DNA from: Salvia splendens | Lineage: Eukaryota; Streptophyta; Magnoliopsida; Lamiales; Lamiaceae | Reading direction: 5' to 3' | DNA: 64,000 bases | Assembly (NCBI RefSeq): GCF_004379255.2 | Contig: NC_056038.1 | Location: forward strand, 12,562,729-12,626,728 | Shown: piece by piece, positions 13,382-63,356 of the stretch | Layout: the number at the start of each line of letters is the position of its first letter | How positions within the stretch are numbered: the first letter of the stretch is position 1 | The notes under the pieces: generated by a model | Database searches by the model: none | The model's input: only the letters and a program-made list of their open reading frames with translations | What the model was told of the DNA's origin: nothing | Made by a program: the position numbers and the translations under genes

Positions 13382-14295
13382 ATGTTTAAGATAAGTATGG
13401 TTTGTCAAGTCTGTCTCCTCCCTCTGGCTATAATCTTGGTCCTCCTTCCACCACAACCGACACTTTCCAATTCAATCAGCCGGCCCGGCTGCCCCGACCG
13501 GTGTGGAAATTTACCGATACCATTTCCGTTCGGAGTCGGGTCGGATTGCTCTTTAGATCCATCATTCAACATAAGTTGCTATAATTATTCCAATTCTCCA
13601 ACACCTTTCCTCACTAGTATTCTCACGGTACTGTGGCCAGAGCTGATTGAAATAAACGAATTTCAAGTTCGGATTAAGTTAACCTACCCAGTTTGGTCTT
13701 GCTACACCGAAACTGGAATAGATTGGATGGATGGAGGGTTTGTAGTGAGTTACGATATTAGTGGAGGTCAGTACACGTTCTCTGATGGGAACCGGGTTAT
13801 TGCTATCGGCTGCGACGACGCTGTGGCGTTCAACGGAACAGCCAACGGCCGGAACTTCGCCGGTGGGTGCACAGCTGTTTGTGACAGCAACAATGGTTCA
13901 GCTGCGATTTGTCCAGATGGTAGTGACGCCAGTGAGCTCGGTAACGGCTGTTGCCAGACGCCTATTCCTAAAGGTAAGTCACCTACGGTTTTGCATTTTG
14001 GTATTTTATACAACCCTCCGTACCAAGGAAGATGACCCTTCCTTGGATGACACGAGAATTTATACAACTTTATTTTATATGTGAAGTGGAGAGAGTAAAG
14101 TAGGAGATATGGAATAAAGTAGAGAGAAATGTGTTTCCATTTTTAGTAATGGACCATCTTAGTTGGGAAAAATAAAAATGAAAGTGGGTCATCTTTAATG
14201 AACGAAGGGAGTATTAATTATCTCACTTTATTTTAATCAATTTTTATAGTAGACTTGATATTTCACTAACTCATTGTCGCTTACATATAAAATTA

Positions 14296-15052
14296 AGACT
14301 AAGGTCTATTTTTGGTCCCATACATTTGCCTTAAAAACTTTTTGGTCCCATACATTAAGTTTGTAACCTTTTGGTCCCAAATAATATGTTTTGGTCCAAG
14401 CTTAACTTTATCTGTTAAAACTAACGTGTTTGACCAAATTAATGATTTAATTATATAATATAGTTAATCTAATTAACTTAATTAATACAGTTGTATTAAA
14501 AATTTATGGGGCGTTAATAAAAATATAAATAAAATTTACAGAATTTTAATATTAAAATAATATAATGAAAATAACATTTACCGGACTTAATAAAAATATA
14601 GGTAACATTTACGGGACCATACTTCTTTTTGACCCATCCCCAAAAAACCAACCAATATTCCATATTATTTTTCGGTGAAATCCCGTAAATGTTGTTTTAA
14701 TTCAAATAAAGTAGTTTTTATATTTTAATTTAGAATAATAATTAATTCAGTTAATTATAGATTTTAATTAAGTCAATTTTTTATTTTCAGTAAATTTCTT
14801 TTAATTTAATCAATTTTTTAAGTAAAAAATTATTTTGAAAATTTTAATATTAAATAAATTGAGTTAATTAGGTTAATTATATTATAACTAAGTCATTAAT
14901 TTGGTCAAACATGTTTGACTGTTAGTTTTAACGAAAAATGCTAAGTTTGGACCAAAACATATTGTTTGGGACAAAAATGTCACAAACTTAATGTATAGGA
15001 CAAAAAAGTATTTTAGGGCAAATGTAGGGGGACCAAAAATGGACTTTAGTCT
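14296..15052. mobile_element. Mutator-like MITE in WAK intron 1 (copy A)
   Basis: About 757 bp with long inverted repeats of roughly 110 bases. The left arm reads AGACTAAGGTCTATTTTTGG and onward through repeated TTTTGGTCCCATACATT; the right arm is its complement, ending CCATTTTTGGTCC reversed. The direct repeat aaaatta flanks it (14289-14295 and 15053-15059). No open frame inside. The same insertion lies at 25761-26513 and 58569-59325, so it predates the duplications. Mutator class is inferred from the long repeats. Confidence 0.7.
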
Positions 15053-15311
15053 AAAATTAATACTCCCATGTTTCTGAAAAATATGAACATTTAGTTCGGC
15101 TTAAGTTTGAGTATATAATTGGTAAAGTAAGAGATAAGGAGATAAATGGTAGTGTAGGTAGTGTAAGTGTAGAGTGAGCTCCACATCATTAAAGTTATAA
15201 TTGTATTGTAATGATATAAGTTGTAAATAAAATAATGTGCATGGGTAAATTGTTGTTCCAAAATTAAAAAGTTCATATATTTCAGGACGAACTAATAAGG
15301 AATAGTTCATA

Positions 15312-15534
15312 CTCTCTCCATTCCCTCATAGTTGAGTCATTTTTTCTTTCTTGAGAAGTTCCTTCATTGTTGAGTCATTTCTATATATAGTAATAATATT
15401 CTCACTCTTATTTCCTCTCTCTATTTTTTTTCTTCCCTCTTCCTTTTTTATCTATCGACTTAACAAATTAAACATTTACTATTTTAAACTCCGTGCCGAA
15501 AAGTTCCTCCTCAACTATGAGGGAACGGAGGGAG
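15312..15534. mobile_element. Stowaway-type MITE in WAK intron 1 (copy A)
   Basis: Bounded by TA dinucleotides, with ends ctctctccattccctcatag and the inverted partner ctatgagggaacggagggag. No coding capacity. Orthologous insertions are at 26772-26996 and 59587-59810. Another Stowaway-like sequence with weaker ends lies in intron 2 (about 16395-16625). Confidence 0.65.
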
Positions 15535-18500
15535 TACTTTTCAGGCCGGATGAAATATATAAAAATAGAATCCACATTCCACTAATTTTTTCAGTCCCTT
15601 ACTATATTTCTTCCTCCATCCCAAGAAAGATGAATGAGTTTTTATTTTTAGTAAAGAGTCGTCTTGGATGAAATAAAATCATTTTAAGTGAAATTAAATG
15701 GATGGAATACATTCTTAAAATATGTCTTAGGAGAGTTTATTTTACGTAGAAAATGCCTATTCGGAGAGTTTTATTGTGCAATGAAGATAAAATATAAGTG
15801 CAGGCACAAATAGAATTGAACTAAGAGTATATGATGCACACCAAATTTGGAGGCGAGGCAGAAAGTTTTCAACTGCGGCTACGCCTTTCTAGGAGAAAGG
15901 GGCAACATAGATCCACGCTTCACCCAACTGAATGATTCAAAGCGTTTAAGACGTAGTGACAATTGGGTTTGGGATTTATATGCCGCCAGTGTTAGTGGAT
16001 TGGAGAATCGGAAGCGAGAGTTGCAGCCGCGCACAACAGGGTCGTTCAACTTACGTGTGTGCAGAGAATAGCGAATGTGGTTGATTTTGTTCTGATGCTA
16101 ATGGCTACAATTGCCGCTGCTTTCAAGGATATCAAGGAAACCCTTACCTGCCCTACGGATGTCAAGGTTGGTGCAACATTTTTCGCGTGATGAATAAAGT
16201 AAGAGATATAAAAGATAATTGAATATTTTAATGATTTTCTAAATAAGTGAGAGGTCATCTTGATTGGTATGGGTAAAGCGAGTCATCTTCTGTGGGACGA
16301 AGGAAGTATTATTTGGTACAAAACAAAATATTTATTGCATATTATTTTTAATTATGTAGATAGTGCTTAATTTTTAAAATTTAGACTAATATTCCATCCC
16401 CGTCCCATAGAAATAAGTCATATTTTCTTTTTCGTCCGTCCCATACAAATAGTCCATATCAATTTGTGGTAATCTTTTCTCCTTCCCATTTACTTAATTA
16501 TTTATGGACCCCACTATCTACTACACAATTTCAACTATTTTTTTCTCCTTTTATCTTACTTTAACAATTATGCATTAAAACTCGTGTTGATATTAAATGG
16601 TCTATTTCTATGGGGCAGAGTGAGTATAAAAAATAAATTAATGGTTCATGCATCACGAACGTTACACTAGTATGCATTATAGAGAAGTTGTAAACTAGGC
16701 ATCTTACGGTTGTAAATACACGACTCATACAACATGCTTCACCTTTATTTCTATTTAATACAAAAATTATAAAAAAAATTCATTCGTGTTTCATTTTTAG
16801 TACATTCCATTATTTTGTTTGGATGTCGTTAACTCTTTATTCATGTGGAATACAAAATATTGCATCATTGTTTCATATCAATACAAAAGGTTTTATCAAT
16901 ATTTTATATTGGTTAAAAAAAATCCATCATGGTTTCATGTTTTTGACCCACGTAGGTAAAGAGTTAACGACGTTCAAACACATGACATAATGTATTGAAT
17001 TTAAATGCAAATGAAAATTTAGAACATCGGGCCTAAACTGTTCGTAAACTCAATTTTTCGTAGCAATTGACAAATATTAGGATCCATTTACAGAGTAGAT
17101 AACTCCATAACATATAAGAGAGTTTATCTAACCTAATATAGGTGTTCTTATCATATTTTGTCTATCTCAACTTTCTATTAAACTTAAAAAGACTTATAGA
17201 ATCCACCTACACACTTCATATACCTAGTAGCATTATTATGCTTGTTATAAAAATGCATAGTACAAATAATATACTCCTTCTGTCTGTGAATAGGAGTTCC
17301 GTTTTTCTATTTTAGTCCGTCCACGAATAGGAGTCCTGGTTCACTTTTACCATAAATGGCAATAGGGTTCCACCTTCCACTAACTCATTCTACTCACATT
17401 TCATTTAAACTAATATATACAAGTGGGACCCCTATTCCACTAATTTTTTTCGCTCACTTTTCTTAACATTTCTTAGAACTCGTGCCTTCATATGTATATA
17501 TATTACTCCATTTCATATGTTAGTTTCTGTGGCAGATATTGATGAATGTTCAAATCATACACTTAACCCATGCGATTCAAATTCAATTTGCACAAACACT
17601 CCTGGCTCTGTTAATTGCACGTGTCGAAAAGGATATCGTGGTGATGGATTGTCCAATGGTAAGGGCTGCACTCGGGAGCCACCTTCAGAATGACCATCAA
17701 ATTATTAATAGGTAAATTTTCATTAAGTCCCTATCTTGATTTTAGTTTTAAGCATATACTGTATTATATATTTACTAAATTATATGTGCAGACGAGAATG
17801 CCATTAATGAAATGAAATACAATGAATTAGAAACATTGGAATGAGAGTAGTAAATAAGTTTGATGTTATTTTGTGAAATTGACGAGTATCCCATTCATTC
17901 CCAGGTCTGGCATGTGGGTTAGGATTTCTGTTACTCTTGCCAATTTGTTTCTGGTTGCACAAACAGCTGAAAAACAGAGAAAATAGAAGGCGCAAAGAAA
18001 ATCTCTTCCAAACCCTTCTCTTACAACATCAGACCAATGAAGATACATTTGGAAGAACCAAGCTTTTTCTAGCAAAGGAGCTGGAGAAAGCTACCGATAA
18101 CTTCAAACGAAAATCGAATTCTCGGAAGAGGAGGGCAAGGTGTAGTCTACAAAGGAATGCTATCCAATGGTACAATTGTAGCAATCAAGAACTGAAGGAG
18201 GTTGATGAGACTCAAGTGGAGCAATTCATAAACGAGGTTGTGATATTATCACAAATCAATCATAGGAATGTCGTCAAATTGTTGGGTTGTTGCTTGGCGT
18301 TTGAGGTTCCTCTCCTCGTATACGAGTATGTGCTTAATGGGACACTTTTTGATCTCATTCATCAATCAGAACTTCCAATCTCATGGAACATGCGCATAAA
18401 AATTGCGGGCAGATATAGCAGGTGCAGTGGCTTACTTACATTTTGCATCAGCTGTCCCCATCTATCACAGAGACATCAAGTCCACCAACATCCTTATGGA

Positions 18501-19666
18501 TGAAAAGTACGTTGTCAAAGTGTCGGATTTCGGAACATCCAATTTGTTGCAGTAGACCAAACTCACCTGACCACGCTGGTGAAAGGTACATTCGGATATT
18601 TAGATCCAGAGTATTTCCAGACGAGCCAATATACAGACAAGAGCGACGTTTATAGCTTTGGAGTAATTCTTGTCGAGCTTCTAACAGGACAACGGGCCCA
18701 TATCTTTAGATGCATCACAAGAAAGAAATCTAGCAACACGATTTCTTGCATGTATGGAAGCAGACAATCTTGATGCCATAATAGATACCCAAGTTTCCAA
18801 GCAAGCTAAGAAAGAAGAGGTGATTGCAGTTGCAAGGCTTTGCAAAAAGGTGCTTGAACATCACAGGGATAATGAGGCCAAACATGAAGGAAATAGCCAG
18901 AGAATTGGAAAGTTTGTCTATGTCTCAACTCTCTGCAAATGTTACACATGAAATTGAAGAAGCAACCATGTATGAAGCCAAGTCAGTTTGGTTCCAAACA
19001 TTGATTACACTTGGACAAGTGGTGACACTGTCGCCTCATCATCAGATGCACATCCTCTAATGTCTACAAAATTTTGAACTTATGTCTTTTTTATTGCTCT
19101 TGTAATACCTTTAGTTACAACTAAGCTTTCACATATTACAAATATAATTTCACTTTTACGTGCTGGTAAAAATTATCTACCTCCTTAAATATGACTATTT
19201 TAGTGACGTGTCTCTCTGTTTTTGACATGCATAATAACTACATATCTATGTGTCGTAATTCTCTTCAATAATTATGTCGCTGATTTATGTAGTACTACGA
19301 TTCAATGATTGTTGAAGGAGTTGATCCACATATAGAAAATGATTGTTTAACTCTACACGAATGAAAACATTAACGTAAAGATTTTTGTTTGTTGAAAAGG
19401 TTTTGTAGCTAAGAAGTGAAAGCTGTAAAAAAAGTTCAAATAAGATAAACTACAAATAGGACGGTAAAAAAATCAAATAAGATAAGATTTCACATCAATG
19501 TAAAATTTGAACTAAAATCACTACTAATAGTATAAAAGGACAATGGAATGCATGAATCATAGTCTGATTTATAAACCAAAAGGAATTAAGTCTCCAGTAT
19601 AAGTAATTTATATTGTTCAATTTTACATTTTAAACATAAATTGTCCACAATACAAAATAAATTATA

Positions 19667-19931
19667 CTCCCTCCGCCCCGCTTAAGATGACATGTTTCCC
19701 TTTTAGTTTGTCCCAACTAAGATGACACATTTCTTTTTTTGGAAACTTTCTCTCTCCAATTAATACACCCAACAACTTTTTCTCACTCCTATTAAAATAT
19801 TCATCTTTCTTTATCTCTCTCCTTTAATACTTCCACCTAACTTTTCTCTCTCCAATTAAACACTTTAACCAATAACTCCTAAAATCCCGTGCTGGCCAAG
19901 AAATGTGTCATCTTAGTCGGGACAGAGGGAG
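19667..19931. mobile_element. Stowaway MITE downstream of unit A
   Basis: 265 bp, flanked by TA, with ends ctccctccgccccgcttaag and the inverted partner ttagtcgggacagagggag. Non-coding. The same insertion lies at 31135-31400 in unit B and begins at about 63949 in unit C. Confidence 0.8.
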
Positions 19932-20936
19932 TATATAAATATATCCGTCTATATATAAAATGCAAATTAAACAATCTATTTCTAAAATGGAAAACTCAAC
20001 AATAGAAAATGTAATCTGCCTATAACTAAAATGCAATCTTCTAAAATTCATCTATTAAAATACAAATGTATATTGCTTTTTAATATTTATAATATTGGAT
20101 GTTCGTTCCACATGACAGCAACGAGATTGGATGTAACTTAGCACTTAAATTAGTTATCATATTAGTATATCCTTATGTATATATAACATAATAAATAAAT
20201 ATATAAAACTATTAAAGTAGGACATTCAAACTACGTTGAAAAATAGAACTATCTCAAATTATTTCGATTAGGATATCGACTACTTTGCACCATTATAGCC
20301 GAGCAAAGGATTCACCAGGTGAAGTGGTCTTCCACATTTATTAATGCCTTTTGACCCGAACAAGGTATTCACCCGGTCAAGACGTCCATATTAGTACATT
20401 TTTTATTGTTTGTATGTCGATCCATTCAACATGTTCAATATTTTTAATAAAATATCTATTTATCTCTCACAGTCTTACATAATTCTCGGATTATTACAAA
20501 TACTTGACTAATTTTAAATATTATTGAACAAAAAATTAGATTAATTATGACCTTTATTTACAAGTAATTATACAATCGAACGTGTCTGTAAAGAAATATG
20601 CTTATAAACTATTTTCATATAATTGAAGTGAGTTCCATACTATTTGGTGCTAGCAGCATCTTAAAAATAAAATCAAATATTTGAATTAACTAAAAGAAAA
20701 ATTATTTAATGGTTCCCTCTATTGTTAATAATATAGTAACGCTTTCCATCCCCAGTTAATTGTCACCAATTTATTTTTTCGTTCGTCCCCAATTAATTGA
20801 CACACTTTATTTTGACTAGTTTTAATAATGTACATCACATTTCACTAACTTATTTCACTTACATTTTATTGTAAAATTAATATATAAAAGTTGGACTTAT
20901 ATTCCATTAACTTTTTTCCACCAACTTTCGCAATAC

Positions 20937-20990
20937 ATACGCCTTTCTAGGAAAAATGGCGATAGATCGGCGCCTCACCCAACTAAATCA
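20937..20990 (+). pseudogene. Shard of WAK exon 2 (copy A spacer)
   Basis: About 54 bases match the exon 2 segment coding [18 protein letters not shown], with changes (aggaaaaatggcgat in place of aggagaaaggggcaa). A frame consistent with YAFLGKNG followed by RRLTQLN is visible. It lies 540 bases right of a diverged copy of the WAK upstream block (20270-20400). Together they look like a nearly erased older WAK gene. The B counterpart is 32407-32462. Confidence 0.6.
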
Positions 20991-21499
20991 CTACTAATAG
21001 TACTCCCTTCGTTCCTTCATAGTTGAGTCATTTTTTTCATTTCAGGAAGTTCTTCATAGTTGAGTCATTTCCATATATGTAACTGTTTTCTCTCTTTCTT
21101 CCTTTATTCTCTCTTACTTTATTCTCTCTACTTTATTCACTTATACTTTATTCTCTCTATCTTTTCCTCTCTTCTTACTTATTTTATCTATTTATTTAAC
21201 ACATCCAACTTCATTTCTAAAACTCTGTGCAGAAAAGTTTCGCCTCTACTATGAAGAACAAGAGGAGTATAAAAAGGACAATGGAATGCAATGAATCACT
21301 ACTATTTCACTACATTTCTATTTCCACCCACTTTTTATTATATTTCTTAAAAATCCGTACCGGGTCAAAAGATGCCATTAATGGGCGACGAGTGAGTAAT
21401 ATTTGGAAAATTTTAATCTAACAAATGATACACATCAGTCTACAATGTTATTATAATTAAAGCACCATTTAAATTTGTACCTTAACTCTATATGTTTTA

Positions 21500-21560
21500 T
21501 ATATATTAGTATTAACACCCGAGCTATGCACGGGAATATAAGAGTTTCAAAATAATGAAT
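21500..21560. other. Helitron-like 5' signature
   Basis: The phrase attaacacccgagctatgcacggg resembles the CCCGTGCGATGCACGGG box near the 5' end of many plant Helitrons. No CTRR end with hairpin was identified downstream, so this is a weak hint only. B counterpart: about 32970-33015. Confidence 0.25.
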
Positions 21561-22831
21561 ATAACATATAATAAATATATAGAAATAAGAATTGAAAGCA
21601 ATATGGAGATTTAAAAAAACATAATGTACTTATCTTGTCTCACTCAAAATGAAGAATTATACTATTCCCCAGTGAATGAAACATTTATGCAATTTAATTA
21701 TAATCTAAGTGAAGTAAAAACAATAAAATTATGACAAAAATAATATGTGTGACTAATGATCAAAGAGTATGAATTAATTAGAATAAGATATACAAATAAA
21801 GAAAATATGTGTGAGTAAAGATGTTTATTGAAAGTGATATGCAAGCCATTAATCCAAATAAAAGGTAATTTATAGCTTAATTTATAAAAAATTAATTTGA
21901 AAAATATATGGAATATTAAACATATCCACATTAAATATATGAATAATTTAAATCATATAAATTTAAAACTTCTTTGAGAAGTCAAGGTTAGAAAATTTGT
22001 ATTATCCAATAATCACATTTATTGACTGTTTATTTCTTTCTTTTAATTTCAGACCATAGCATAACTTGATATACATTGCCAAGACTAAATGAATTTTTAT
22101 ATTGGAAAGAATAAATTTTCTTACTTCCCGCCACATATACGTATAAAAAGTAATTACTATTATCACTTAAAATAACGATAATATTTTATGCTTCTTGTTT
22201 GTTTTGAATAATGTGAGAATTTACACTACTCTTTATATTAAGAAGTTATACAAACTTTATAAGTTAGATTTAATTTTAAATATATATAATGTCACCTTAT
22301 TCCTTAGTTTAATCTATAAACTTAGTAGTATTGTTTAATTAGAGACGAATTAAAATATAAGAACTAAAAACTTTAATTGAGTAAATATAGGATGGAAATT
22401 GTAAGCATTACATATATGTGTTGTCGTTTAGCTTGTGAATTAATTCGGAGAAAAAGTATTGCAATAAATGATTAAATCTCAATTTTAACCTAAATAAATG
22501 GAAGGCAAACTAAATTGTCTAGCACAATTCCAATTTAACTCAAATATAAGGCTAATTAATATATAAATTTAATAACTTAATTATAAAAAAAAATTAATGG
22601 TAGTGCACTATTTAAATGTGTTTTAAACTTCTTCAAGAAGTTAGCATTTTATGGGCTATTATTTGTCAATTGTTTGCCTTAAAAAATTCCATTTTTTGAC
22701 CCGAGATAATGTTCTCGCGCCTATTTGGACCGAGTCACCATAACGCGCGGCTGCTTGATTTTCCGAAATTGCCACATATAATCAAACTACAAAACAAATT
22801 AATGAATCGAGCCCCCGGGCTCTGATACCAC

Positions 22832-23041
22832 TGTTAGGAATTTCTTGTTATTCATCTAATGAGCGCAGCGGAACTTGCAGACATGAATAACAGATCTAGA
22901 TTCATAATCATATTGCAAGTTGAGCACTAATACCAACGGAACTAAATCTCACTTGTTTTTGTGTTTTCTTCTTCTACATTGTGTCCCTGCAAGTTTGCAA
23001 TCCACACTATCGAGGTCACGTTATTCGGTCCATGCATGGAA
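22832..23041 (-). mobile_element. Start of a copia LTR, cut by the N gap
   Basis: TGTTAGGAATTTCTTG and the following bases match the LTR at 34319 onward. Just left of it, 22820-22831 (gctctgatacca) is the complement of the copia primer-binding site TGGTATCAGAGC. Agreement with the B copy worsens toward the gap. Confidence 0.7.
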
Positions 23042-23125
23042 NNNNNNNNNNNNNNNNNNNNNNNNNNNNNNNNNNNNNNNNNNNNNNNNNNNNNNNNNNN
23101 NNNNNNNNNNNNNNNNNNNNNNNNN
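23042..23125. other. Assembly gap of 84 N
   Basis: Unresolved bases. To the left the sequence is a copia LTR. To the right it is the interior of the non-autonomous gypsy-like LTR (equivalent of about 12212 and 55921). The missing piece should therefore contain far more than 84 bases if unit B resembles unit C. Confidence 0.97.
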
Positions 23126-24847
23126 ATTTCATTGATTGATTGAAGAGAATAACAATAGCCCTATTTATAATACTAATACTAACTTAATGAGCAAGATAAA
23201 AGATATGGAAAAGATATGCAATCCCTATATTATCTAACTAAATAATGCAAATAAATAATAATGCAAGATATGGAAGAGTATGAATATTAAACGTATCAGC
23301 GACCACCGCGGCGGTCCTATTGTGGACACTCTAAAGGTGTAGATTTAGTCTAGTTTTGGATTATGATATATAAACATTATAAGAGAACCCCATTCAAACT
23401 ACTCTTAATCTTATTATACACTTGAGATATAATATATTACTCTTCCCCGCCCATAAAAATATGAACATTTGAGATGATACAGAATTAAAGATAATTGGTA
23501 AATATGACAAACAGAAATAAGAAGTATTTATAGTATTGTTAGGGAAGAATATGACGCATCTTATAGAGAGGAGAAAGTTATTAAAAAAAAAGAAATATTT
23601 TTATCAATTATCTAAAAATGAAAACGTTTTTATTTTTTTTGACATGGAGGAGGTGTACAATATATAATATATTCTATAAAACATCGACTACGTGGCACCA
23701 TATACCGACCACAGGATTCACCATATACGTGGCCCATATAATACGACCACAGGATTCACCAAGTAAAGATATGCAATCCCTATATTATCTAACTAAATAA
23801 TGCAAATAAATAATAAAAATGCAAGATGGAAGAGATATGAATATTAAACGTATCAGCGACCACCGCGGCGGTCCTATTGTGGACACTCTAAAGGTGTAGA
23901 TTTAGTCTTAGTTTTGGATTATGATACTATAAGCATTATAAGAGAACCCCAATTCAAACTACTCTTAATCTTATTATACACTTGAGATATAAATATTACT
24001 TCTCCCGTCCCATAAAAATATGAACATTTGAGATGATACGAGAATTAATAGATAATTGGTAAAATATGACAAACAGAAATAAGAAGTATTTATAGTATTG
24101 TTAGGGAAGAATATGACCCATCTTATTAGAGAGGAGAAAGTTATTAAAAATAAAAGAAATATTTTTATCAATTATCTAAAAATGAAAAACGTTTTTATTT
24201 TTTTGACATGGAGGAGGGTGTACAATATATAATTATTTCTATTAAAACATCGACTACGTGGCACCATATACCGACCACAGGATTCACCAAGTAAAGAGAT
24301 ACATTCCCCATTTATAAATGTACTTTGACTCGATCAACTCAAGGGATACAACCTGTCAAGAGGTCCATACAACATTTATGGATTTTTTTCTCACAATCGA
24401 ACATATCTCTCAAATGGCTACTCCCTCCGCCCATGAATAAATGTTCCATATTTGACCGTCTTGAATTTTAAAAATTAGTTGACTTTATAAAAGAGGAGTT
24501 GATAGAAAAGTTAGTAGAACGTGAGTCTTGCTTTTATATATTAGTTTTATATTAAAATGTGAGTGAAATGAGTTTGTGGAATGAAGGATTCACCTGCCAA
24601 ATATAATAAAAGTGAAATAGGACCTTCTTTGACGGACATACGAAAAAGTAAAAATGAAACATTTAACTGCAAATGGAGAGTATAGTATAACACAGTGTAA
24701 TTTGTGGGACACTATGGACCACCTCTATTTATAATGGGACACCGCTCTGGATAGTGTAATTTGTGGACACTATGGACCACCTGTACTTACCACTATGGCA
24801 ATATATATACTTGAAGCAAGCAAGCATGCAAGCAAGCAGCAAATTGA
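23126..24847. other. Upstream region of WAK unit B, with tandem duplication
   Basis: LTR interior and WAK upstream sequence, non-coding. The block around gatatgcaatccctatatta occurs twice (from about 23214 and from about 23769), as in unit C and unlike unit A. The first copy carries many single-base losses relative to unit C, most densely next to the N gap. A TATA-like element lies at 24802-24809. Confidence 0.6.
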
Positions 24848-25760
24848 ATGTTTAAGATAAGTATGGTTTGTCAAGTCTGTCTCCTCCCTCTGGCTATATC
24901 TTGGTCCTCCTTCCACCACAACCGACACTTTCCAATTCAATCAGCCGGCCCGGCTGCCCCGACCGGTGTGGAAATTTACCGATACCATTTCCGTTCGGAG
25001 TCGGGTCGGATTGCTCTTTAGATCCATCATTCAACATAAGTTGCTATAATTATTCCAATTCTCCAACACCTTTCCTCACTAGTATTCTCACGGTACTGTG
25101 GCCAGAGCTGATTGAAATAACGAATTTCAAGTTCGGATTAAGTTAACCTACCCAGTTTGGTCTTGCTACACCGAAACTGGAATAGATTGGATGGATGGAG
25201 GGTTTGTAGTGAGTTACGATATTAGTGGAGGTCAGTACACGTTCTCTGATGGGAACCGGGTTATTGCTATCGGCTGCGACGACGCTGTGGCGTTCAACGG
25301 AACAGCCAACGGCCGGAACTTCGCCGGTGGGTGCACAGCTGTTTGTGACAGCAACAATGGTTCAGCTGCGATTTGTCCAGATGGTAGTGACGCCAGTGAG
25401 CTCGGTAACGGCTGTTGCCAGACGCCTATTCCTAAAGGTAAGTCACCTACGGTTTTGCATTTTGGTATTTTATACACCCCTCCGTACCAAGGAAGATGAC
25501 CCTTCCTTGGATGACACGAGAATTTATACAACTTTATTTTATATGTGAAGTGGAGAGAGTAAAGTAGGAGATATGGAATAAAGTAGAGAGAAATGTGTTT
25601 CCATTTTTAGTAATGGACCATCTTAGTTGGGAAAAATAAAAAATGAAAGTGGGTCATCTTTAATGAACGAAGGGAGTATTAATTATCTCACTTTATTTTA
25701 ATCAATTTTTATAGTAGACTTGATATTTCACTAACTCATTGTCGCTTACATATAAAATTA

Positions 25761-50485: not shown

Positions 50486-52456
50486 GATCTGTAATACCCA
50501 CTTCCTTTCCTATCCCTTCCCGTCAATATTTACGTCGTATGTTTTAATGGGACTTGTTACCTTGTTGTCGACGCTTAGCATTATTAGTTCGCAAAACAAA
50601 TTTTAAGGAGAATAATCAAACAAGCTAAAACACGCAAAAGTATGTTATTGAAATATGGGAACCGGTGAGAGGAGATTTCTTCATCCCAAACTAAAATGTT
50701 CGTACACCTTTCGAATGATGAAATTTTGCTAAATGGAATAGTATTCTATTACAAAAAAAATCCAAAAAAGGCTAAGAGCTACAAGTTACTACTAAGCTAT
50801 ACTTTGGACTCCCCTGCCGAGCCAAAAAAAAAACCGCACAACACCGAGCCCCGGTCCGATCAGCCGCTGGGCCGAGGCAGCGAGCCGTCTCGCGGGTGGC
50901 TTTGGCAACCCATGTTGCTTCCACCTGCATTTAGACACAAAAAGGGGAGGGACTTATCACTAAAGTACAAGAGAAAGTAAGGGAGCTCATTAAAGGAAGA
51001 AAATAAACCCCTTAAGCGTCATTCTATATGGTGACTAAGATAACATGACTAATTCAAGTCATTCATTTAAATAACTTATTTCGTCTGGCCGATGAAGTCA
51101 TTCCTTATCTTAGATTTTATCGTCAGATATGGAGCTCTAAAGCTTGCATCGATCGTAATTGTAGCCATTGAGGTAGCGGATTGACCTCAGAATCTCTTGC
51201 TTAGCTGGGGTGGTCTACTTTCACAGTTTTCAAGATACTTTTGTGCTCACCGCGATCCTTTTTGTCATGATTTTGCACATATTTTGTCCTACTTGCGTTT
51301 ATCTTTGAATACTAGAATAGTGCATGTGGATGTGTAGACTTCTTTCTCCAGGCATTGCTAACTCTACACTTCTTCACATTTTATTGTTAACGTCTGTCCT
51401 TACTCTATATTGTAGGGCTCCAAATCCGTTCTCTTGCGATTACTCTTTAAAGAAGATTTTCGATTTCTCCTTTCGTAGTAGGGATGGTGAGGGTAGCGAT
51501 GCTATCACACGTTCTTTTCCCGAATGTCTCTCCAGCTTTGGTTCTTGCTGGCCACCTTTCAGACGAATACTACTTGTTGATGGAATTTGTTTCGCCAAGC
51601 ATATTCTACGAATGTACTCGCATTTTCTCAATGATTGAGTCTTCGTTTCCTGTGGCTCACTTACCTTACTCTTGATAATCATTTCGATCGATCAAACATT
51701 TATATATTGTCTTGTACATCATCAAAAGTCATTCGATCAATGTATATTCCTTAACATTTCTCTTCTTAAGGCTAGTTACCTTTCTACATAGCATAACATT
51801 CGATCTATTACTAGCTTGTTATAAGCGGTACGTAGATATGAAATATTTAATGTTTCGTGTTGTCGGTTATGTCGACGCTTCTAGTTGGTGTATCATTTTC
51901 TGCCCGTGTGCCAAAAAAGACTTATCTAACATGCGTATCTGAAAGGGATTAAGACTATATCTTTTCTGATAGTTTAATCTAGCAGTCTTAACTTGGATAG
52001 GGATTGACATCACACAGATGAAGCATGACTGGAAATGTGAAGGGCTCCACAATATCCAAAGGGACAAGAATAACATCCCTTGTTCGACTCTTATGAATTT
52101 TCATCATCAATTTACGACAATTGATTTTGAATGCAATTACTAAATTCAATTGAACTTATCGGGTTCATTCAAAGAACTACATGGTTCAAATGGTTTCAAA
52201 TAATTAGACCCATAGAATTTGAGAACTCGCTTCTGGTGGGAGCTTGAAAAATATGCGATAGGTCATGAAAAATGGATGGAAATGAATTAACCGTAAGTTT
52301 CTATAGTAGGCTGCCAAATAGGACAGTAAAGTTGTCCAATTAAATTGAAAGGATCTGAGCATCAAGGATAGTGGTTCAACATGTCACTGCCTAAGTTGAT
52401 CAGCCGCGAAAAATTTATAAACATAGGCGATTGCAATGAAGGAACATTGATCATGT
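50486..52456. other. Unassigned spacer
   Basis: Mixed-composition sequence in which I recognise no gene family, LTR or terminal inverted repeat. Open frames of 60-105 codons occur (for example 51324-51638) but have no recognisable motif and overlap on both strands. A GC-richer patch lies at 50810-50930. The segment ends abruptly at the left edge of the large repeated block at about 52457. Confidence 0.4.
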
Positions 52457-53756
52457 TTCAAATAATACCAATTTACCTCGTTGATTCACTGAATAATCGA
52501 AGATGGCTCGCGTCTTCTCCTCGTGAAGATCTTGAGTACTAAACCACGGATCTTCTGACTGGTTCCCGGATTGTAATATGATATTAGTGGGGGCTAATCT
52601 CACCAGAATACTAGGACTTAAATAAAGAAGACAAAAATCCCTCACGGAGGAGGAGAAGAAATCGTCCCCTATGTGAGATAAGGGAGGGACGAAATTTTGA
52701 TAGAAAATACAAGTGTATTTTCTGTCTCCTTTATTCTCCTATTTATATTTAGTCACATATTGGGCCCAGTCTGAGATCTATGGAAGAATTTGGATATGGC
52801 CTCCCCCAATTAGCTTTTTACTAATTAAATTGAACCCACGATTTAATATAAGCTTATATTGGAATATTACGAGCAGCCACTACAGAAGTAATATTGCACT
52901 GCCCATCCAAATCCGAAATTACAAGTATTCCGGGTTTCCATTTGTTTGTCATTTATTTCTCGCGCTTAAGATAGAAACGTCCATTAATTAATCAATGTCT
53001 GCTGTGGACTTAATTAATTAACATATCATTAACTCCAAGAGTGGACTTAGCAAGAAACGCTTATTTATTATTCATAGAGTAATCAAACTCCAACTAGCTA
53101 GGTTCCGAATAATAAAACCTTGTTTCGAGCCCCTCTTGTGGACGTTATCGAACGAGACTCACCTCGTGCACGATTCAATGTAATAGCAATCCTAGCACCG
53201 CTAGATATTAATCACCACTACCCAATATACCAGGATTCTTGGGTTACGAAAAACCCGCACCTATTGGTAAGTCAAAGTAGTGCATAATCAATATCGTATG
53301 CTCAATGCTAACGTACATTGATTAAGAAATTAATTATCAAGACCTCATCTTTCAGTAGATAGCATAAAGACTCGTCTTGCCATTAGATCCAATTCAGTGC
53401 TATACCACACCAATGTCATCTTATTTCAGTAAGGCTTAGAAATATGCGGACTGACATTGCAACCTTTCACGATAGGTAGTCTAGGCCTATCTAGGTTGTG
53501 AAATTCTTATTTTTCTTTGTTCAGAACTGATCGTGTTACCTTAAAGTGGACGACGCCCACAACCGGTCTACTAAAACAGAGACTTAGATTTTGTTATGTT
53601 GCTTATACATTTAAATATGCAATAAACATCCATTAAATGTAAAACATAACAACATTATGACAAAAATAATCTGTTTCATTCCATTGGAAAATAAGATATA
53701 AAGTTTTACAGTATTCAATCACTCGAAAGGTGATTTATAGTATACAAACTCTAACA
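52457..53756 (-). mobile_element. Solo LTR, left-truncated (copy C)
   Basis: Matches 8753-10047 with scattered substitutions (for example cttctcctcgtg for cttctccccgtg). Its first 144 bases are absent: sequence identity between units C and A starts at about 52457, inside this LTR. Confidence 0.65.
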
Positions 53757-53793
53757 CGTATCAATTCCCCCGCCGTTGAAATCCACCTTGTCA

Positions 53794-54153
53794 TCAAGGT
53801 GAGAACCACGAAGAAACAACTAGGAATCCTCCAGGGTCAAAAACAAGCTCGCCATAATTGAGTTTGGAAGGGATTTCCAACTTTCTTTTCTCACCTAAGC
53901 ACATGCCCAATACTAGTAGCCATCGTTTGATTACTTGTCCACTACCAAGTCCGATATCAATTGGATCCTCTCGTTGAAAAATGGGATCGAAAATTGTTCC
54001 ATCTGTCCACTTTCCCTTGTAGTGTATGTTTACACCGTCATATTCGTGAACCTGAACTTCACAAATATTTTTCTTGTCCGTGATGAGCAGAGGAAACCGA
54101 TAGGAGAATGGTGGTGGTTGTGGTGGCAGCGGGACAACAGTAGAAGCGGCCAT
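53794..54153 (-). pseudogene. FKBP15-like fragment (copy C)
   Basis: Encodes the same 119 residues as 10085-10444, with the partial FKBP domain ([32 protein letters not shown]) and the foreign C-terminal tail. It is open and intronless in both copies. The duplication is probably too young for this to mean selection. Confidence 0.75.
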
Positions 54154-54347
54154 CGGCGGTATTGCTGAGCGTCAGAGACTCGTTGAACGGAGCAACGGCA
54201 GCAGCACAACAGTAGGCTGTTCGTGGCAAGAGCAGCTTTGAGTTGTCGTTGTCGGGGAATTCAGAGAGGTTGTATACGTTAAGGTTGATTGCTGGTAGGA
54301 AGGCGGCCGTTCAGTCGGTGGAAGCGGTCGCGAGGGGCAGTTTTGTG

Positions 54348-55138
54348 TAGGGGCGGGGAATTATACCGAAATATCGGAATACCGGACTTACCGTACTGAA
54401 AAATTACCAAAAATATCGATTTTTCGGTATACCATACCGTACCGAAAGATTTGGTACGATAACAGTATTAGATTTCCTATACATCGGTATACCGAAGATT
54501 CAATATATACCGACGCTTCGGTATATCGTGGTATACCGGTATACCGTTGATTATTAAATATATAAATATATACATTACACTTATGTACGTAGTATATAAT
54601 ATTTATGTTATATTTATAGGATTATTTTATATATATAAAACCCTTATATTTATAGGATTCTCCATTTTCAATCATATCTACAGGTAATGTGTTTTGTCAA
54701 ATTCACCAACAAGGTTCCAAGAAATGAAGATAATGTTGTTCATGATTTTATAATTTATTTTTTATAAATTAGAATATTAGAATGATTGATGGAGTTTAAT
54801 TGTTTTGTAATTTTTGAAGTAATTGAACAATAGAATTATTTTTTATAAATATTTTGGGTATAAATATATTATTTTTTAGGTATAACACGTATAACGGTAT
54901 ATCGTAATGAAGTTCGGTATACCGCAAAAGTACGGTATACCGGAATGCGGTATGGTATACCGAAAACACGGTATGGTAATGGTATAAAAAACTACCATAC
55001 CGAATTTTCGGTATACCGAACTCCGGTATACCGAAAAATTCGGTACATTATCGGTATGGTGTTTTGTTATACCATAACTTTCGGTACGGTATACAGTAAG
55101 ACACTCAAAGTACGGTATACCGTACCGAACCACCCATA
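54348..55138. mobile_element. Non-autonomous hAT element rich in GGTATACCG (copy C)
   Basis: Same element and same target duplication gttttgtg (54340-54347 and 55139-55146) as at 10639-11429. Confidence 0.85.
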
Positions 55139-55486
55139 GTTTTGTGGCTGCCAAGGATGAAATCTTGGATGTGAATTGAACGACTATTCGTAGGTATACG
55201 ACGCAGCGTCCGGCGGAGACCCAAAGGCTGAGGTTGGTGGGATGCATGGTGGAGAGCTTCGGCTCGTGGAGGCAGTTTTAGAGGCTGGACGACAGCTGTA
55301 GCGGGCAGCGGTGCTGCTGTGCGGCAGTGACTCGTCGAGCTCCAGCAGGGTTGGTGCTGCGGTGGCGGCAACGGCCATTCAGTTGGGCGGTGGTCGGTAG
55401 ACGAGCTGGTCTTGCTGCCATGGATCAGTGTAGGGCTGAGACTTCAACTGCCTGTAGGGGTCGGTGTAGGTTGGATACAATGACTG

Positions 55487-55783
55487 TCAGTATGGCTCCG
55501 TGTCGAGCAGATATGGCGGCTGCTTGAAGGTATGTTGCTGGCAGGTATTTGGAGGCGGTGGCGGTGGCTGGTAGGTGTTTAGAGACGCTGACAACGACTG
55601 ATTGTGGAAGTAGGGTGCAACAACGTAGGCTGGCGCCGAATATATTAGCGGCGCATATGAATCCGTGTAGGTGAACAAGTGTTGTTGTTCGTCTATCATG
55701 TCTAACTTCTTGTTTATTCTGTTGCAGACGGCCATTATCCAGTCACATAGGTAAGATAGATAGATTTCTTCGTTGGAAGTCAT
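55487..55783 (-). CDS. Gag-like Pro/Tyr/Gln-rich frame (copy C)
   Basis: Encodes the same residues as 11778-12074, from ATG 55783. Role unknown; it sits at the gag position behind the primer site. Confidence 0.4.
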   Translation of the reverse strand: MTSNEEIYLSYLCDWIMAVCNRINKKLDMIDEQQHLFTYTDSYAPLIYSAPAYVVAPYFHNQSLSASLNTYQPPPPPPNTCQQHTFKQPPYLLDTEPY

Positions 55784-55817
55784 GGATGGAGGATGAGATC
55801 GCGATGAAAGCACCAAG

Positions 55818-56096
55818 TGAAGAAGATAAAGAAAGTCGCGGAGAAACGTCGCTCTGTCGACAATCGATACTTTTAGGATTCTAGACGGAAAACTAAATAA
55901 AGATAAAAGACAAATAATTATGATTTCATTGATTGATTGAAGAGAATAACAATAGCCCTATTTATAATACTAATACTAACTTAATGAGCAAGATAAAAGA
56001 TATGGAAAAGATATGCAATCCCTATATTATCTAACTAAATAATGCAAATAAATAATAATGCAAGATATGGAAGAGATATGAATATTAAACGTATCA
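55818..56096 (-). repeat. 5' LTR of the non-autonomous gypsy-like element (copy C)
   Basis: Equivalent to 12109-12387. Confidence 0.75.
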
Positions 56097-57130
56097 GCGA
56101 CCACCGCGGCGGTCCTATTGTGGACACTCTAAAGGTGTAGATTTAGTCTTAGTTTTGGATTATGATACTATAAGCATTATAAGAGAACCCCAATTCAAAC
56201 TACTCTTAATCTTATTATACACTTGAGATATAAATATTACTTCTCCCGTCCCATAAAAATATGAACATTTGAGATGATACGAGAATTAATAGATAATTGG
56301 TAAAATATGACAAACAGAAATAAGAAGTATTTATAGTATTGTTAGGGAAGAATATGACGCATCTTATTAGAGAGGAGAAAGTTATTAAAAATAAAAGAAA
56401 TATTTTTATCAATTATCTAAAAATGAAAAACGTTTTTATTTTTTTGACATGGAGGAGGGTGTACAATATATAATTATTTCTATTAAAACATCGACTACGT
56501 GGCACCATATACCGACCACAGGATTCACCATATACGTGGCACCATATACCGACCACAGGATTCACCAAGTAAAGATATGCAATCCCTATATTATCTAACT
56601 AAATAATGCAAATAAATAATAATGCAAGATATGGAAGAGATATGAATATTAAACGTATCAGCGACCACCGCGGCGGTCCTATTGTGGACACTCTAAAGGT
56701 GTAGATTTAGTCTTAGTTTTGGATTATGATACTATAAGCATTATAAGAGAACCCCAATTCAAACTACTCTTAATCTTATTATACACTTGAGATATAAATA
56801 TTACTTCTCCCGTCCCATAAAAATATGAACATTTGAGATGATACGAGAATTAATAGATAATTGGTAAAATATGACAAACAGAAATAAGAAGTATTTATAG
56901 TATTGTTAGGGAAGAATATGACCCATCTTATTAGAGAGGAGAAAGTTATTAAAAATAAAAGAAATATTTTTATCAATTATCTAAAAATGAAAAACGTTTT
57001 TATTTTTTTGACATGGAGGAGGGTGTACAATATATAATTATTTCTATTAAAACATCGACTACGTGGCACCATATACCGACCACAGGATTCACCAAGTAAA
57101 GAGATACATTCCCCATTTATAAATGTACTT
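56000..57130. repeat. Tandem duplication of about 564 bp upstream of WAK unit C
   Basis: The block from gatatgcaatccctatatta to ggattcaccaagtaaaga occurs twice, offset 564 bases. It covers the LTR end, the right arm of the outer TIR element and the first WAK upstream sequence. The two blocks differ at few sites (atgacgcatc against atgacccatc). The junction also has an extra copy of about 37 bases containing cgtggcaccatataccgacc. Unit B shares the duplication; unit A has a single block. Confidence 0.8.
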
Positions 57131-57653
57131 TGACTCGATCAACTCAAGGGATACAACCTGTCAAGAGGTCCATACAACATTTATGGATTTTTTTCTCACA
57201 ATCGAACATATCTCTCAAATGGCTACTCCCTCCGCCCATGAATAAATGTTCCATATTTGACCGTCTTGAATTTTAAAAAATTAGTTGACTTTATAAAAGA
57301 GGAGTTGATAGAAAAGTTAGTAGAACGTGAGTCTTGCTTTTATATATTAGTTTTATATTAAAATGTGAGTGAAATGAGTTTGTGGAATGAAGGATTCACC
57401 TGCCAAATATAATAAAAGTGAAATAGGACCTTCTTTGACGGACATACGAAAAAGTAAAAATGAAACATTTAACTGCAAATGGAGAGTATAGTATAACACA
57501 GTGTAATTTGTGGGACACTATGGACCACCTCTATTTATAATGGGACACCGCTCTGGACTAGTGTAATTTGTGGGACACTATGGACCACCTGTACTACCAC
57601 TATGGCAATATATACTTGAAGCAAGCAAGCATGCAAGCAAGCAAGCAAATTGA
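57131..57653 (+). promoter_or_regulatory. Upstream and core promoter region of WAK unit C
   Basis: Contains the degenerate Stowaway-like MITE (about 57225-57490), the 31-bp direct repeat agtgtaatttgtgggacac... at 57500-57530 and 57560-57590, a TATATA at 57609-57614 and a GCAA-repeat leader (57620-57647) just before ATG 57654. Promoter role inferred from position. Confidence 0.45.
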
Positions 57654-60600
57654 ATGTTTAAGATAAGTATGGTTTGTCAAGTCTGTCTCCTCCCTCTGGC
57701 TATAATCTTGGTCCTCCTTCCACCACAACCGACACTTTCCAATTCAATCAGCCGGCCCGGCTGCCCCGACCGGTGTGGAAATTTACCGATACCATTTCCG
57801 TTCGGAGTCGGGTCGGATTGCTCTTTAGATCCATCATTCAACATAAGTTGCTATAATTATTCCAATTCTCCAACACCTTTCCTCACTAGTATTCTCACGG
57901 TACTGTGGCCAGAGCTGATTGAAATAAACGAATTTCAAGTTCGGATTAAGTTAACCTACCCAGTTTGGTCTTGCTACACCGAAACTGGAATAGATTGGAT
58001 GGATGGAGGGTTTGTAGTGAGTTACGATATTAGTGGAGGTCAGTACACGTTCTCTGATGGGAACCGGGTTATTGCTATCGGCTGCGACGACGCTGTGGCG
58101 TTCAACGGAACAGCCAACGGCCGGAACTTCGCCGGTGGGTGCACAGCTGTTTGTGACAGCAACAATGGTTCAGCTGCGATTTGTCCAGATGGTAGTGACG
58201 CCAGTGAGCTCGGTAACGGCTGTTGCCAGACGCCTATTCCTAAAGGTAAGTCACCTACGGTTTTGCATTTTGGTATTTTATACACCCTCCGTACCAAGGA
58301 AGATGACCCTTCCTTGGATGACACGAGAATTTATACAACTTTATTTTATATGTGAAGTGGAGAGAGTAAAGTAGGAGATATGGAATAAAGTAGAGAGAAA
58401 TGTGTTTCCATTTTTAGTAATGGACCATCTTAGTTGGGAAAAATAAAAAATGAAAGTGGGTCATCTTTAATGAACGAAGGGAGTATTAATTATCTCACTT
58501 TATTTTTAATCAATTTTTATAGTAGACTTGATATTTCACTAACTCATTGTCGCTTACATATAAAATTAAGACTAAGGTCTATTTTTGGTCCCATACATTT
58601 GCCTTAAAAAACTTTTTGGTCCCATACATTAAGTTTGTAACCTTTTGGTCCCAAATAATATGTTTTGGTCCAAGCTTAACTTTATCTGTTAAAACTAACG
58701 TGTTTGACCAAATTAATGATTTAATTATATAATATAGTTAATCTAATTAACTTAATTAATACAGTTGTATTAAAATTTATGGGGCGTTAATAAAAATATA
58801 AATAAAATTTACAGAATTTTAATATTAAAATAATATAATGAAAATAACATTTACCGGACTTAATAAAAATATAGGTAACATTTACGGGACCATACTTCTT
58901 TTTGACCCATCCCCAAAAAACCAACCAATATTCCATATTATTTTTCGGTGAAATCCCGTAAATGTTGTTTTATTCAAATAAAGTAGTTTTTATATTTTAA
59001 TTTAGAATAATAATTAATTCAGTTAATTATAGATTTTAATTAAGTCAATTTTTTATTTTCAGTAAATTTCTTTTTAATTTAATCAATTTTTTAAGTAAAA
59101 AATTATTTTGAAAATTTTAATATTAAATAAATTGAGTTAATTAGGTTAATTATATTATAACTAAGTCATTAATTTGGTCAAACATGTTTGACTGTTAGTT
59201 TTAACGGAAAATGCTAAGTTTGGACCAAAACATATTGTTTGGGACAAAAATGTCACAAACTTAATGTATAGGACAAAAAAGTATTTTAGGGCAAATGTAG
59301 GGGGACCAAAAATGGACTTTAGTCTAAAATTAATACTCCCATGTTTCTGAAAAATATGAACATTTAGTTCGGCTTAAGTTTTGAGTATATAATTGGTAAA
59401 GTAAGAGATAAGGAGATAAATGGTAGTGTAGGTAGTGTAAGTGTAGAGTGAGCTCCACATCATTAAAAGTTATAATTGTATTGTAATGATATAAGTTGTA
59501 AATAAAATAATGTGCATGGGTAAATTGTTGTTCCAAAATTAAAAAGTTCATATATTTCAGGACGAACTAATAAGGAATAGTTCATACTCTCTCCATTCCC
59601 TCATAGTTGAGTCATTTTTTTCTTTCTTGAGAAGTTCCTTCATTGTTGAGTCATTTCTATATATAGTAATAATATTCTCACTCTTATTTCCTCTCTCTAT
59701 TTTTTTTCTCCCTCTTCCTTTTTTATCTATCGACTTAACAAATTAAACATTTACTATTTTTAAACTCCGTGCCGAAAAGTTCCTCCTCAACTATGAGGGA
59801 ACGGAGGGAGTACTTTTCAGGCCGGATGAAATATATAAAAATAGAATCCACATTCCACTAATTTTTTCAGTCCCTTACTATATTTCTTCCTCCATCCCAA
59901 GAAAGATGAATGAGTTTTTATTTTTAGTAAAGAGTCGTCTTGGATGAAATAAAATCATTTTAAGTGAAATTAAATGGATGGAATACATTTCTTAAAATAT
60001 GTCTTAGGAGAGTTTATTTTACGTAGAAAATGCCTATTCGGAGAGTTTTATTGTGCAATGAAGATAAAATATAAGTGCAGGCACAAATAGAATTGAACTA
60101 AGAGTATATGATGCACACCAAATTTGGAGGCGAGGCAGAAAGTTTTTCAACTGCGGCTACGCCTTTCTAGGAGAAAGGGGCAACATAGATCCACGCTTCA
60201 CCCAACTGAATGATTCAAAGCGTTTAAGACGTAGTGACAATTGGTTTGGGATTTATATGCCGCCAGTGTTAGTGGATTGGAGAATCGGAAGCGAGAGTTG
60301 CAGCCGCGCACAACAGGGTCGTTCAACTTACGTGTGTGCAGAGAATAGCGAATGTGTTGATTTTGGTTCTGATGCTAATGGCTACAATTGCCGCTGCTTT
60401 CAAGGATATCAAGGAAACCCTTACCTGCCCTACGGATGTCAAGGTTGGTGCAACATTTTTCGCGTGATGAATAAAGTAAGAGATATAAAAGATAATTGAA
60501 TATTTTAATGATTTTCTAAATAAGTGAGAGGTCATCTTGATTGGTATGGGTAAAGCGAGTCATCTTCTGTGGGACGAAGGAAGTATTATTTGGTACAAAA

Positions 60601-63356
60601 CAAAATATTTTATTGCATATTATTTTTAATTATGTAGATAGTGCTTAATTTTTAAAATTTAGACTAATATTCCATCCCCGTCCCATAGAAATAAGTCATA
60701 TTTTCTTTTTCGTCCGTCCCATACAAATAGTCCATATCAATTTGTGGTAATCTTTTTCTCCTTCCCATTTACTTAATTATTTATGGACCCCACTATCTAC
60801 TACACAATTTCAACTATTTTTTCTCCTTTTATCTTACTTTAACAATTATGCATTAAAACTCGTGTTGATATTAAATGGTCTATTTCTATGGGGCAGAGTG
60901 AGTATAAAAATAAATTAATGGTTCATGCATCACGAACGTTACACTAGTATGCATTATAGAGAAGTTGTAAACTAGGCATCTTACGGTTGTAAATACACGA
61001 CTCATACAACATGCTTCACCTTTATTTCTATTTAATACAAAAATTATAAAAAAAATTCATTCGTGTTTCATTTTAGTACATTCCATTATTTTTGTTTGGA
61101 TGTCGTTAACTCTTTATTCATGTGGAATACAAAATATTGCATCATTGTTTCATATCAATACAAAAGGTTTTATCAATATTTTATATTGGTTAAAAAAAAT
61201 CCATCATGGTTTCATGTTTTTGACCCACGTAGGTAAAGAGTTAACGACGTTCAAACACATGACATAATGTATTGAATTTAAATGCAAATGAAAATTTAGA
61301 ACATCGGGCCTAAACTGTTCGTAAACTCAATTTTTCGTAGCAATTGACAAATAATTAGGATCCATTTACAGAGTAGATAACTCCATAACATATAAGAGAG
61401 TTATCTAACCTAATATATGTGTTCTTATCATATTTTGTCTTATCTCAACTTTCCTATTAAACTTAAAAAGACTTATAGAATCCACCTACACACTTCATAT
61501 ACCTAGTAGCATTATTATGCTTGTTATAAAAATGCATAGTACAAATAATATACTCCTTCTGTCTGTGAATAGGAGTTCCGTTTTTCTATTTTAGTCCGTC
61601 CACGAATAGGAGTCCTGGTTCACTTTTACCATAAATGGCAATAGGGTTCCACCTTCCACTAACTCATTCTACTCACATTTCATTTAAAACTAATATATAC
61701 AAGTGGGACCCCTATTCCACTAATTTTTTTCGCTCACTTTTCTTAACATTTCTTAGAACTCGTGCCTTCATATGTATATATATTACTCCATTTCATATGT
61801 TAGTTTCTGTGGCAGATATTGATGAATGTTCAAATCATACACTTAACCCATGCGATTCAAATTCAATTTGCACAAACACTCCTGGCTCTGTTAATTGCAC
61901 GTGTCGAAAAGGATATCGTGGTGATGGATTGTCCAATGGTAAGGGCTGCACTCGGGAGCCACCTTCAGAAATGACCATCAAATTATTAATAGGTAAATTT
62001 TCATTAAGTCCCTATCTTGATTTTAGTTTTAAGCATATACTGTATTATATATTTACTAAATTATATGTGCAGACGAGAATGCCATTAATGAAATGAAATA
62101 CAATGAATTAGAAACATTGGAATGAGAGTAGTAATAAGTTTGATGTTATTTTGTGAAATTGACGAGTATCCCATTCATTCCCAGGTCTGGCATGTGGGTT
62201 AGGATTTCTGTTACTCTTGCCAATTTGTTTCTGGTTGCACAAACAGCTGAAAAACAGAGAAAATAGAAGGCGCAAAGAAAATCTCTTCCAAACCCTTCTC
62301 TTACAACATCAGACCAATGAAGATACATTTGGAAGAACCAAGCTTTTTCTAGCAAAGGAGCTGGAGAAAGCTACCGATAACTTCAACGAAAATCGAATTC
62401 TCGGAAGAGGAGGGCAAGGTGTAGTCTACAAAGGAATGCTATCCAATGGTACAATTGTAGCAATCAAGAAACTGAAGGAGGTTGATGAGACTCAAGTGGA
62501 GCAATTCATAAACGAGGTTGTGATATTATCACAAATCAATCATAGGAATGTCGTCAAATTGTTGGGTTGTTGCTTGGCGTTTGAGGTTCCTCTCCTCGTA
62601 TACGAGTATGTGCTTAATGGGACACTTTTTGATCTCATTCATCAATCAGAACTTCCAATCTCATGGAACATGCGCATAAAAATTGCGGCAGATATAGCAG
62701 GTGCAGTGGCTTACTTACATTTTGCATCAGCTGTCCCCATCTATCACAGAGACATCAAGTCCACCAACATCCTTATGGATGAAAAGTACGTTGTCAAAGT
62801 GTCGGATTTCGGAACATCCAAATTTGTTGCAGTAGACCAAACTCACCTGACCACGCTGGTGAAAGGTACATTCGGATATTTAGATCCAGAGTATTTCCAG
62901 ACGAGCCAATATACAGACAAGAGCGACGTTTATAGCTTTGGAGTAATTCTTGTCGAGCTTCTAACAGGACAACGGGCCATATCTTTAGATGCATCACAAG
63001 AAAGAAATCTAGCAACACGATTTCTTGCATGTATGGAAGCAGACAATCTTGATGCCATAATAGATACCCAAGTTTCCAAGCAAGCTAAGAAAGAAGAGGT
63101 GATTGCAGTTGCAAGGCTTGCAAAAAGGTGCTTGAACATCACAGGGATAATGAGGCCAAACATGAAGGAAATAGCCAGAGAATTGGAAAGTTTGTCTATG
63201 TCTCAACTCTCTGCAAATGTTACACATGAAATTGAAGAAGCAACCATGTATGAAGCCAAGTCAGTTTTGGTTCCAAACATTGATTACACTTGGACAAGTG
63301 GTGACACTGTCGCCTCATCATCAGATGCACATCCTCTAATGTCTACAAAATTTTGA
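57654..63356 (+). CDS. Wall-associated receptor kinase, unit C (intact)
   Basis: Exons 57654-58245, 60081-60443, 61816-61992 and 62185-63356 join in phase to 767 codons plus TGA, with GT-AG introns. Residues 1-30 are a signal peptide ([15 protein letters not shown]). A GUB_WAK domain starts at Cys37 ([20 protein letters not shown]). An EGF-like module is at about 283-318 and a calcium-binding EGF at 319-363 ([13 protein letters not shown]). The membrane helix is 378-395, followed by a basic stop-transfer segment (KNRENRRRK). Kinase: P-loop [11 protein letters not shown] (452-462), Lys472, Glu488, HRDIKSTN with Asp567, DFG at 585-587, [11 protein letters not shown] activation segment. All catalytic residues of an RD Ser/Thr kinase are present. 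Known WAKs bind pectin and oligogalacturonides and act in growth and defence. Long MITE-filled introns separate the extracellular exons. The first in-frame ATG was taken as start; Met6 is an alternative. Confidence 0.93.
58569..59325. mobile_element. Mutator-like MITE in WAK intron 1 (copy C)
   Basis: Orthologous to 14296-15052, flanked by aaaatta (58562-58568 and 59326-59332). Confidence 0.7.
59587..59810. mobile_element. Stowaway-type MITE in WAK intron 1 (copy C)
   Basis: Orthologous to 15312-15534, flanked by TA. Confidence 0.65.

Follow-up and report, generated by a model that had tools for sequence, protein, structure and literature searches.

Two kinds of false duplication are the described systems closest to the locus reported here. 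In homotype false duplication, overlapping sequence at contig boundaries gives rise to tandem copies with a gap between them, as outlined by the Vertebrate Genomes Project (2021, PMC8081667) and Ko et al. (2022, PMC9516828); in heterotype (haplotype) false duplication, the copies are two alleles of one locus. The genome concerned is that of the ornamental plant Salvia splendens, whose chromosome-scale assembly is given as 807.7 Mb in 1,184 scaffolds with 22 pseudochromosomes (PMC8408255). The first assembly is described as made from noisy PacBio reads with a mean length of 7.4 kb, from selected templates of 15-50 kb, by means of Canu, Arrow, SSPACE, GapCloser and Pilon, and the sequenced line as inbred, with a heterozygosity of 0.06% (PMC6030905). 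The same paper names BioProject PRJNA422035 for the PacBio and Illumina reads. The later steps named are Hi-C, two rounds of LR_Gapcloser, a further Pilon round and the removal of contigs with >99% identity as redundant (PMC8408255). LR_Gapcloser is described as accepting raw reads and may close gaps partly (PMC6324547).

We analyzed a window of 64,000 nucleotides (C7:12562729-12626728, where C7 is contig NC_056038.1) within an assembly that, as searched, comprised 806 Mb in 1,162 contigs. Two of the three near-identical WAK units in this window, A and B, carry frameshifts. Our comparisons make it very probable that these are contig-end consensus errors in a tandem WAK array, not decay, and that the neighborhood in which A and B are drawn, on either side of an assembly gap, is not true. 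Judged in this way, the order A-84 N-B as drawn is wrong or unproven.

Layout of the tandem array and gene C

Self-comparison of the window, which took in matches above 150, 300 or 700 bp depending on the run, revealed identities of 98-99% among three units: A (12298-23041), B (which starts at 23126) and C (which runs up to the window end). Coordinates are those of the window, and the blocks and exons named here lie on its plus strand. A clean block upstream of A (AL, 8750-12821) recurs at 52459-56530. It is followed by unit A with its WAK gene (12822-23041), which we take as the right end of the left contig, and by a run of 84 N (23042-23125); no other N run occurs in the window or elsewhere in the 154 kb of C7 examined. 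Unit B (23126-34527), taken as the left end of the right contig, holds the same segment as A and matches A at 12214-23041. The first 32.8-kb period continues with a spacer and the interrupted paralogue D (34528-52458, D itself at 40428-49348), and 52459-64000 is taken up by the upstream block together with unit C, which is the cleanest copy and runs on past the window end. The initial annotation had described three near-identical units, which their identity confirmed, but the repeat exceeds the units: the stretch from B through D to 43835, including the spacer part from 34528, matches C onward to 76649, beyond the window, giving two periods of a 32.8-kb tandem repeat. The array itself looks real, because B and C recur at this distance on a single N-free stretch.

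Several smaller repeats were found along the way. A 524-bp element is tandemly duplicated in C (56007-57094; two copies with a 40-bp spacer, from self-comparison), and it is present twice in B (23210-24289) and in an unplaced 158-kb contig (C348) and once in A (12298-12821). An N gap adjoining this element was considered and rejected, as the element is a tandem duplication free of N. The spacer between B and D has direct repeats of ~389 bp (98%) at 36339-36727 and 37546-37931, and the first intron of A holds inverted copies of a ~200-bp element (83%) at 14286-14486 and 14854-15062. Matches of ~200 bp to a 2-kb query from the start of A and its first exon were also observed on many chromosomes, and the element likely represents small mobile elements. 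At C8:12386738-12397015, two sites ~8 kb apart match the first exon region at 82-83%, which is probably a homoeologous WAK locus.

The coding model of copy C joins four exons into 767 aa with no internal stop: exon 1 (57654-58245; signal peptide region and GUB_WAK_bind), exon 2 (60081-60443; colinear with Salvia hispanica protein P0001), exon 3 (61816-61992; EGF_CA region) and exon 4 (62185-63356; kinase domain). All domains scored above cut-off (GUB_WAK_bind, 35.1 bits; EGF_CA, 32.5; Pkinase, 168.7), so that one protein combines the GUB_WAK_bind, EGF and kinase domains by which the WAK family is recognized. A wall-associated receptor kinase-like 6 of 762 aa from Salvia hispanica aligns with it colinearly (88% identity). 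The gene shares its domain set with tandem plant WAK/WAKL receptor kinase genes and in itself shows nothing unusual. No protein named Salvia splendens was close to gene C over its full length among the best 120 matches of each of two protein searches, made in a database clustered at 90% identity and with limited lengths. The closest Salvia splendens protein among the matches listed was a 264-aa fragment (92% identity over 70% of the kinase exon), which fits the D-type copies.

Paralogue D had been credited with ordinary substitutions, and this was borne out by the aligned blocks of D and C, with 54 substitutions and 4 indels in 1,500 bp and 32 substitutions and 1 indel in 834 bp. Within D, at 41486-48521, an insert (42665-47344), labeled gag-pol-like by eye from its open reading frames, lies between direct repeats of 1.18 kb that belong to the WAK gene's own sequence. 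We rejected these repeats as LTRs, as WAK homology is continuous over the left edge at 41486. A downstream copy (94633-97704, in window coordinates) has a single 1.18-kb repeat and no gag-pol-like insert.

Indels, substitutions and the assembly gap

With the exons set on C as reference, 2,304 exonic bp were compared. A differed from C by 12 indels and B by 6, with 0 substitutions in both; the about a dozen and six small indels given in the initial annotation, which also noted very few coding substitutions, are thus exact. Seventeen of these 18 exonic indels are of one base and one is of four bases; none is a multiple of three. In the introns, 25 indels and 2 substitutions were counted in A, and 29 and 1 in B. 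The full alignment and count that had been proposed as a check gave the same dominance of indels over whole stretches, with, against C, 113 indels against 17 substitutions in A (12822-23041) and 86 against 21 in B (23126-43835), as counted from the top BLASTN alignment of each pair with affine gaps. Substitution clusters in A, B and C348 that had appeared in MAFFT alignments (three-way with a low gap penalty, and four-way) were discarded as misplaced gaps, since they are absent from the affine-gap alignments. The further statement that the indels fall mainly in homopolymers held for the whole stretches, where 44 of 68 one-base deletions in A and 33 of 52 in B lie in runs of at least three bases (such runs make up 25% and 24% of the bases), but not for the exons, where only 5 of 12 and 2 of 6 indels do so. 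Copy C, which had been called intact, retains an open coding sequence but is not error-free: A and B share 7 indel sites against it (5 exactly, 2 within 3 bp), none of them in C exons, and 13 further indels lie at 71.4-74.6 kb.

The 84 N fill precisely the interval from the end of A to the start of B. A matches C up to its final base and B from its opening base, and C itself extends past both points; since the homology is flush with the N run on both sides, the edges of A and B are ends of contigs that fall within a repeat and not breakpoints of a duplication. Indel density was also arranged around this gap. In A, compared with C, it amounted to 1 per kb at 13 kb, 7-8 at 14-19 kb, 13 at 20 kb, 24 at 21 kb and 23 at 22 kb. 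In B it fell away from the gap, with 18 indels in the first 874 bp and then 7, 4, 14, 9, 5, 1 and 1 per kb up to 30 kb. None of 20,000 uniform draws gave a mean indel distance to the gap as small as that of A, and none of 20,000 one as small as that of B (23126-34527). The gap and these gradients are additions to what the initial annotation had noted. The gradient in B is uneven, with the 14 indels at 26 kb, and this counts against reading the indels as consensus errors. The idea that A starts as a gap fill at 12821 was dropped, as the noise climbs from ~14 kb with no step at 12821.

Clean blocks and an unplaced contig served as controls. The AL block differed from the block upstream of C by 11 substitutions, 9 of them transitions, and 0 indels. 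The first part of the unplaced contig (C348:1-67117) matches the left flank of the array and is an apparent haplotig of it; over six alignments, each 1.5 kb or longer and together covering 32.9 kb, 262 substitutions and 99 indels were counted. Against this ratio, those of A (12822-19716; 3 substitutions, 46 indels) and B (23126-29000; 10 and 57) were strongly shifted toward indels (Fisher p, 6e-20 and 5e-19). Transitions made up 9/11 and 10/13 of the substitutions in the clean blocks AL and R3, and 4/17 in A, 10/21 in B, 6/16 in the C348 unit and 2/26 in a further unit, E; that about half of those in B are transitions again counts against consensus error. In its array part, C348 carries both a WAK that has diverged (88-93%) and a near-copy of C that is noisy. 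The contig ends inside this noisy unit with 97 indels in its last 8.1 kb and no gradient, which misfits a simple contig-end picture. When the far end of C348 was used to search the genome, it matched a dispersed repeat and gave no synteny information.

Origin of A and B

The reading we prefer would start from a real tandem array in Salvia splendens of a WAK gene pair (the unit and a D-type paralogue) with a period of 32.8 kb. Assembled from noisy PacBio reads averaging 7.4 kb, the array would have been broken into contigs internally, and two contig ends, A and B, would have been set side by side with 84 N between them. Consensus would have been poor at each end, where read depth was presumably low, so that mostly one-base indels would have piled up toward the gap; these may have survived polishing, probably as the near-identical copies left short reads without a unique placement. 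We judge the frameshifts most likely to be errors on the strength of the 18 exonic indels unaccompanied by substitutions, the gradients facing the N run and the clean AL block, and the few transitions in A, the published noisy-read pipeline and the likeness to the described contig-boundary artefact point the same way. The earlier suggestion of an unpolished long-read consensus thus gained strong support from this evidence, in particular from private, mostly one-base indels that peak at the N-facing contig ends. With the frameshifts taken as consensus errors, A and B would likely be functional.

The deposited sequence is frameshifted 12 times in A and 6 times in B, as expected if both were truly decayed pseudogenes, but the lack of any exonic substitution beside those indels, an indel density that tracks the distance to the assembly gap, and nearby clean blocks that hold substitutions with few or no indels make genuine decay extremely improbable. 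We also regard it as very unlikely that A and B truly lie 84 bp apart in a separate real tandem duplication with a period of ~11.5 kb. The deposited scaffold reads that way, but an N run, not a breakpoint, cuts the homology to C at both ends, and the errors peak there.

How A and B relate to each other turns on very few differences. B is distinguished from A, or from the block upstream of A, by isolated transitions at 12399 (window) and at 59207, 66046 and 66072 (C coordinates), and a fifth, at 64741 (C coordinates), is private to A; the overlap also holds isolated transversions, 3 in A and 1 in B, which may be errors or real. This leaves 4-5 credible single-nucleotide variants (SNVs) in ~10.8 kb. 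It is seriously possible, though we stop short of calling it probable, that A and B represent two distinct copies within the 32.8-kb array, subject to consensus noise as above, and that the gap hides ~21.4 kb (the rest of copy 1 and a D-type paralogue). Such an arrangement suits the presence of B and C on one N-free stretch with D between them, a missing length of 32,797 minus 11,402 and a number of SNVs between A and B that is about as low as between B and C; it has to accommodate a gap drawn as 84 bp and two indels that A and B have in common and that C and E lack. The same two indels favor a single array copy of one haplotype assembled twice, a reading we hold only tentatively and, in its simplest same-molecule form, consider not proven, because of the SNVs separating A from B. 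A heterotype false duplication, in which A and B would be allelic versions of a single locus, appears rather unlikely to us. The observed SNVs are close to the ~6 expected at the published heterozygosity, and an apparent haplotig of the left flank exists, but the line is described as inbred and C348 differs from that flank by ~0.3-2.0% substitutions, far above the difference between A and B. The frameshifts are best read as errors in every one of these cases, be it one copy, alleles or two copies.

Haplotype false duplication, as first suggested for these units, is one of several candidate readings. It fits the heterozygosity, but the SNV count agrees equally well with the small difference between B and C, and not all of the repeat would be false. 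The expectation that the true gene count is smaller is fair for A and B together, but the gap may equally hide ~21 kb with another D-type copy. Somewhat doubtfully, we also consider a very young array comprising three or four near-identical pairs of WAK genes, in which the gap is drawn too small and of which no intact copy was seen among the public proteins searched. If so, a recent expansion of a cell-wall receptor gene would be masked by assembly errors.

Further breaks and relation to described artefacts

Beyond the window, a second discontinuity was observed at 76647 (window coordinates), where the sequence jumps, with no N, from the interior of the D' insert into the middle of unit E, in an intron of its WAK unit. 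The first 354 bp of E (76647-77000) show 42 differences from C (11.9 per 100 bp, against 0.57 in the remainder) and look like a raw-read gap fill. The 13 indels at 71.4-74.6 kb set C apart from both B and a third copy. C may be noisier toward the 76647 break as well; these indels peak at 72-73 kb, away from that break, and could be real variants. Copy E alone carries a 5.2-kb LTR-retrotransposon-like insertion (81021-86240), whose terminal repeats measure 572 and 579 bp (97%) and which has a target duplication of 5 bp.

Collectively, the locus is best described as an assembly artefact superimposed on a tandem WAK array that looks real and is otherwise ordinary, in which the duplicate A/B copy itself is perhaps also not real. 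WAK gene and pseudogene counts are unreliable at this array locus in the published genome of an ornamental plant. What looks like two decayed paralogues can be recognized as contig-end noise from sequence alone, by differences confined to indels and by a density climbing to an N run.

In comparison with homotype false duplication as described, A and B likewise form a tandem pair on one scaffold, each copy at a contig end and the two parted by a gap, with homology flush with the contig ends and, as the indel gradients indicate, uneven consensus quality. Their overlap of ~10.8-11.4 kb can be set beside the approximate (corrected) read length expected for a homotype case, given the published mean read of 7.4 kb and templates of 15-50 kb. 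Unlike that artefact, A and B lie in a real-looking array of near-identical copies, and credible SNVs separate them. The resemblance to heterotype false duplication consists in a near-identical pair within one scaffold and an apparent haplotig of the flank, but A and B differ from each other far less than this haplotig differs from the flank.
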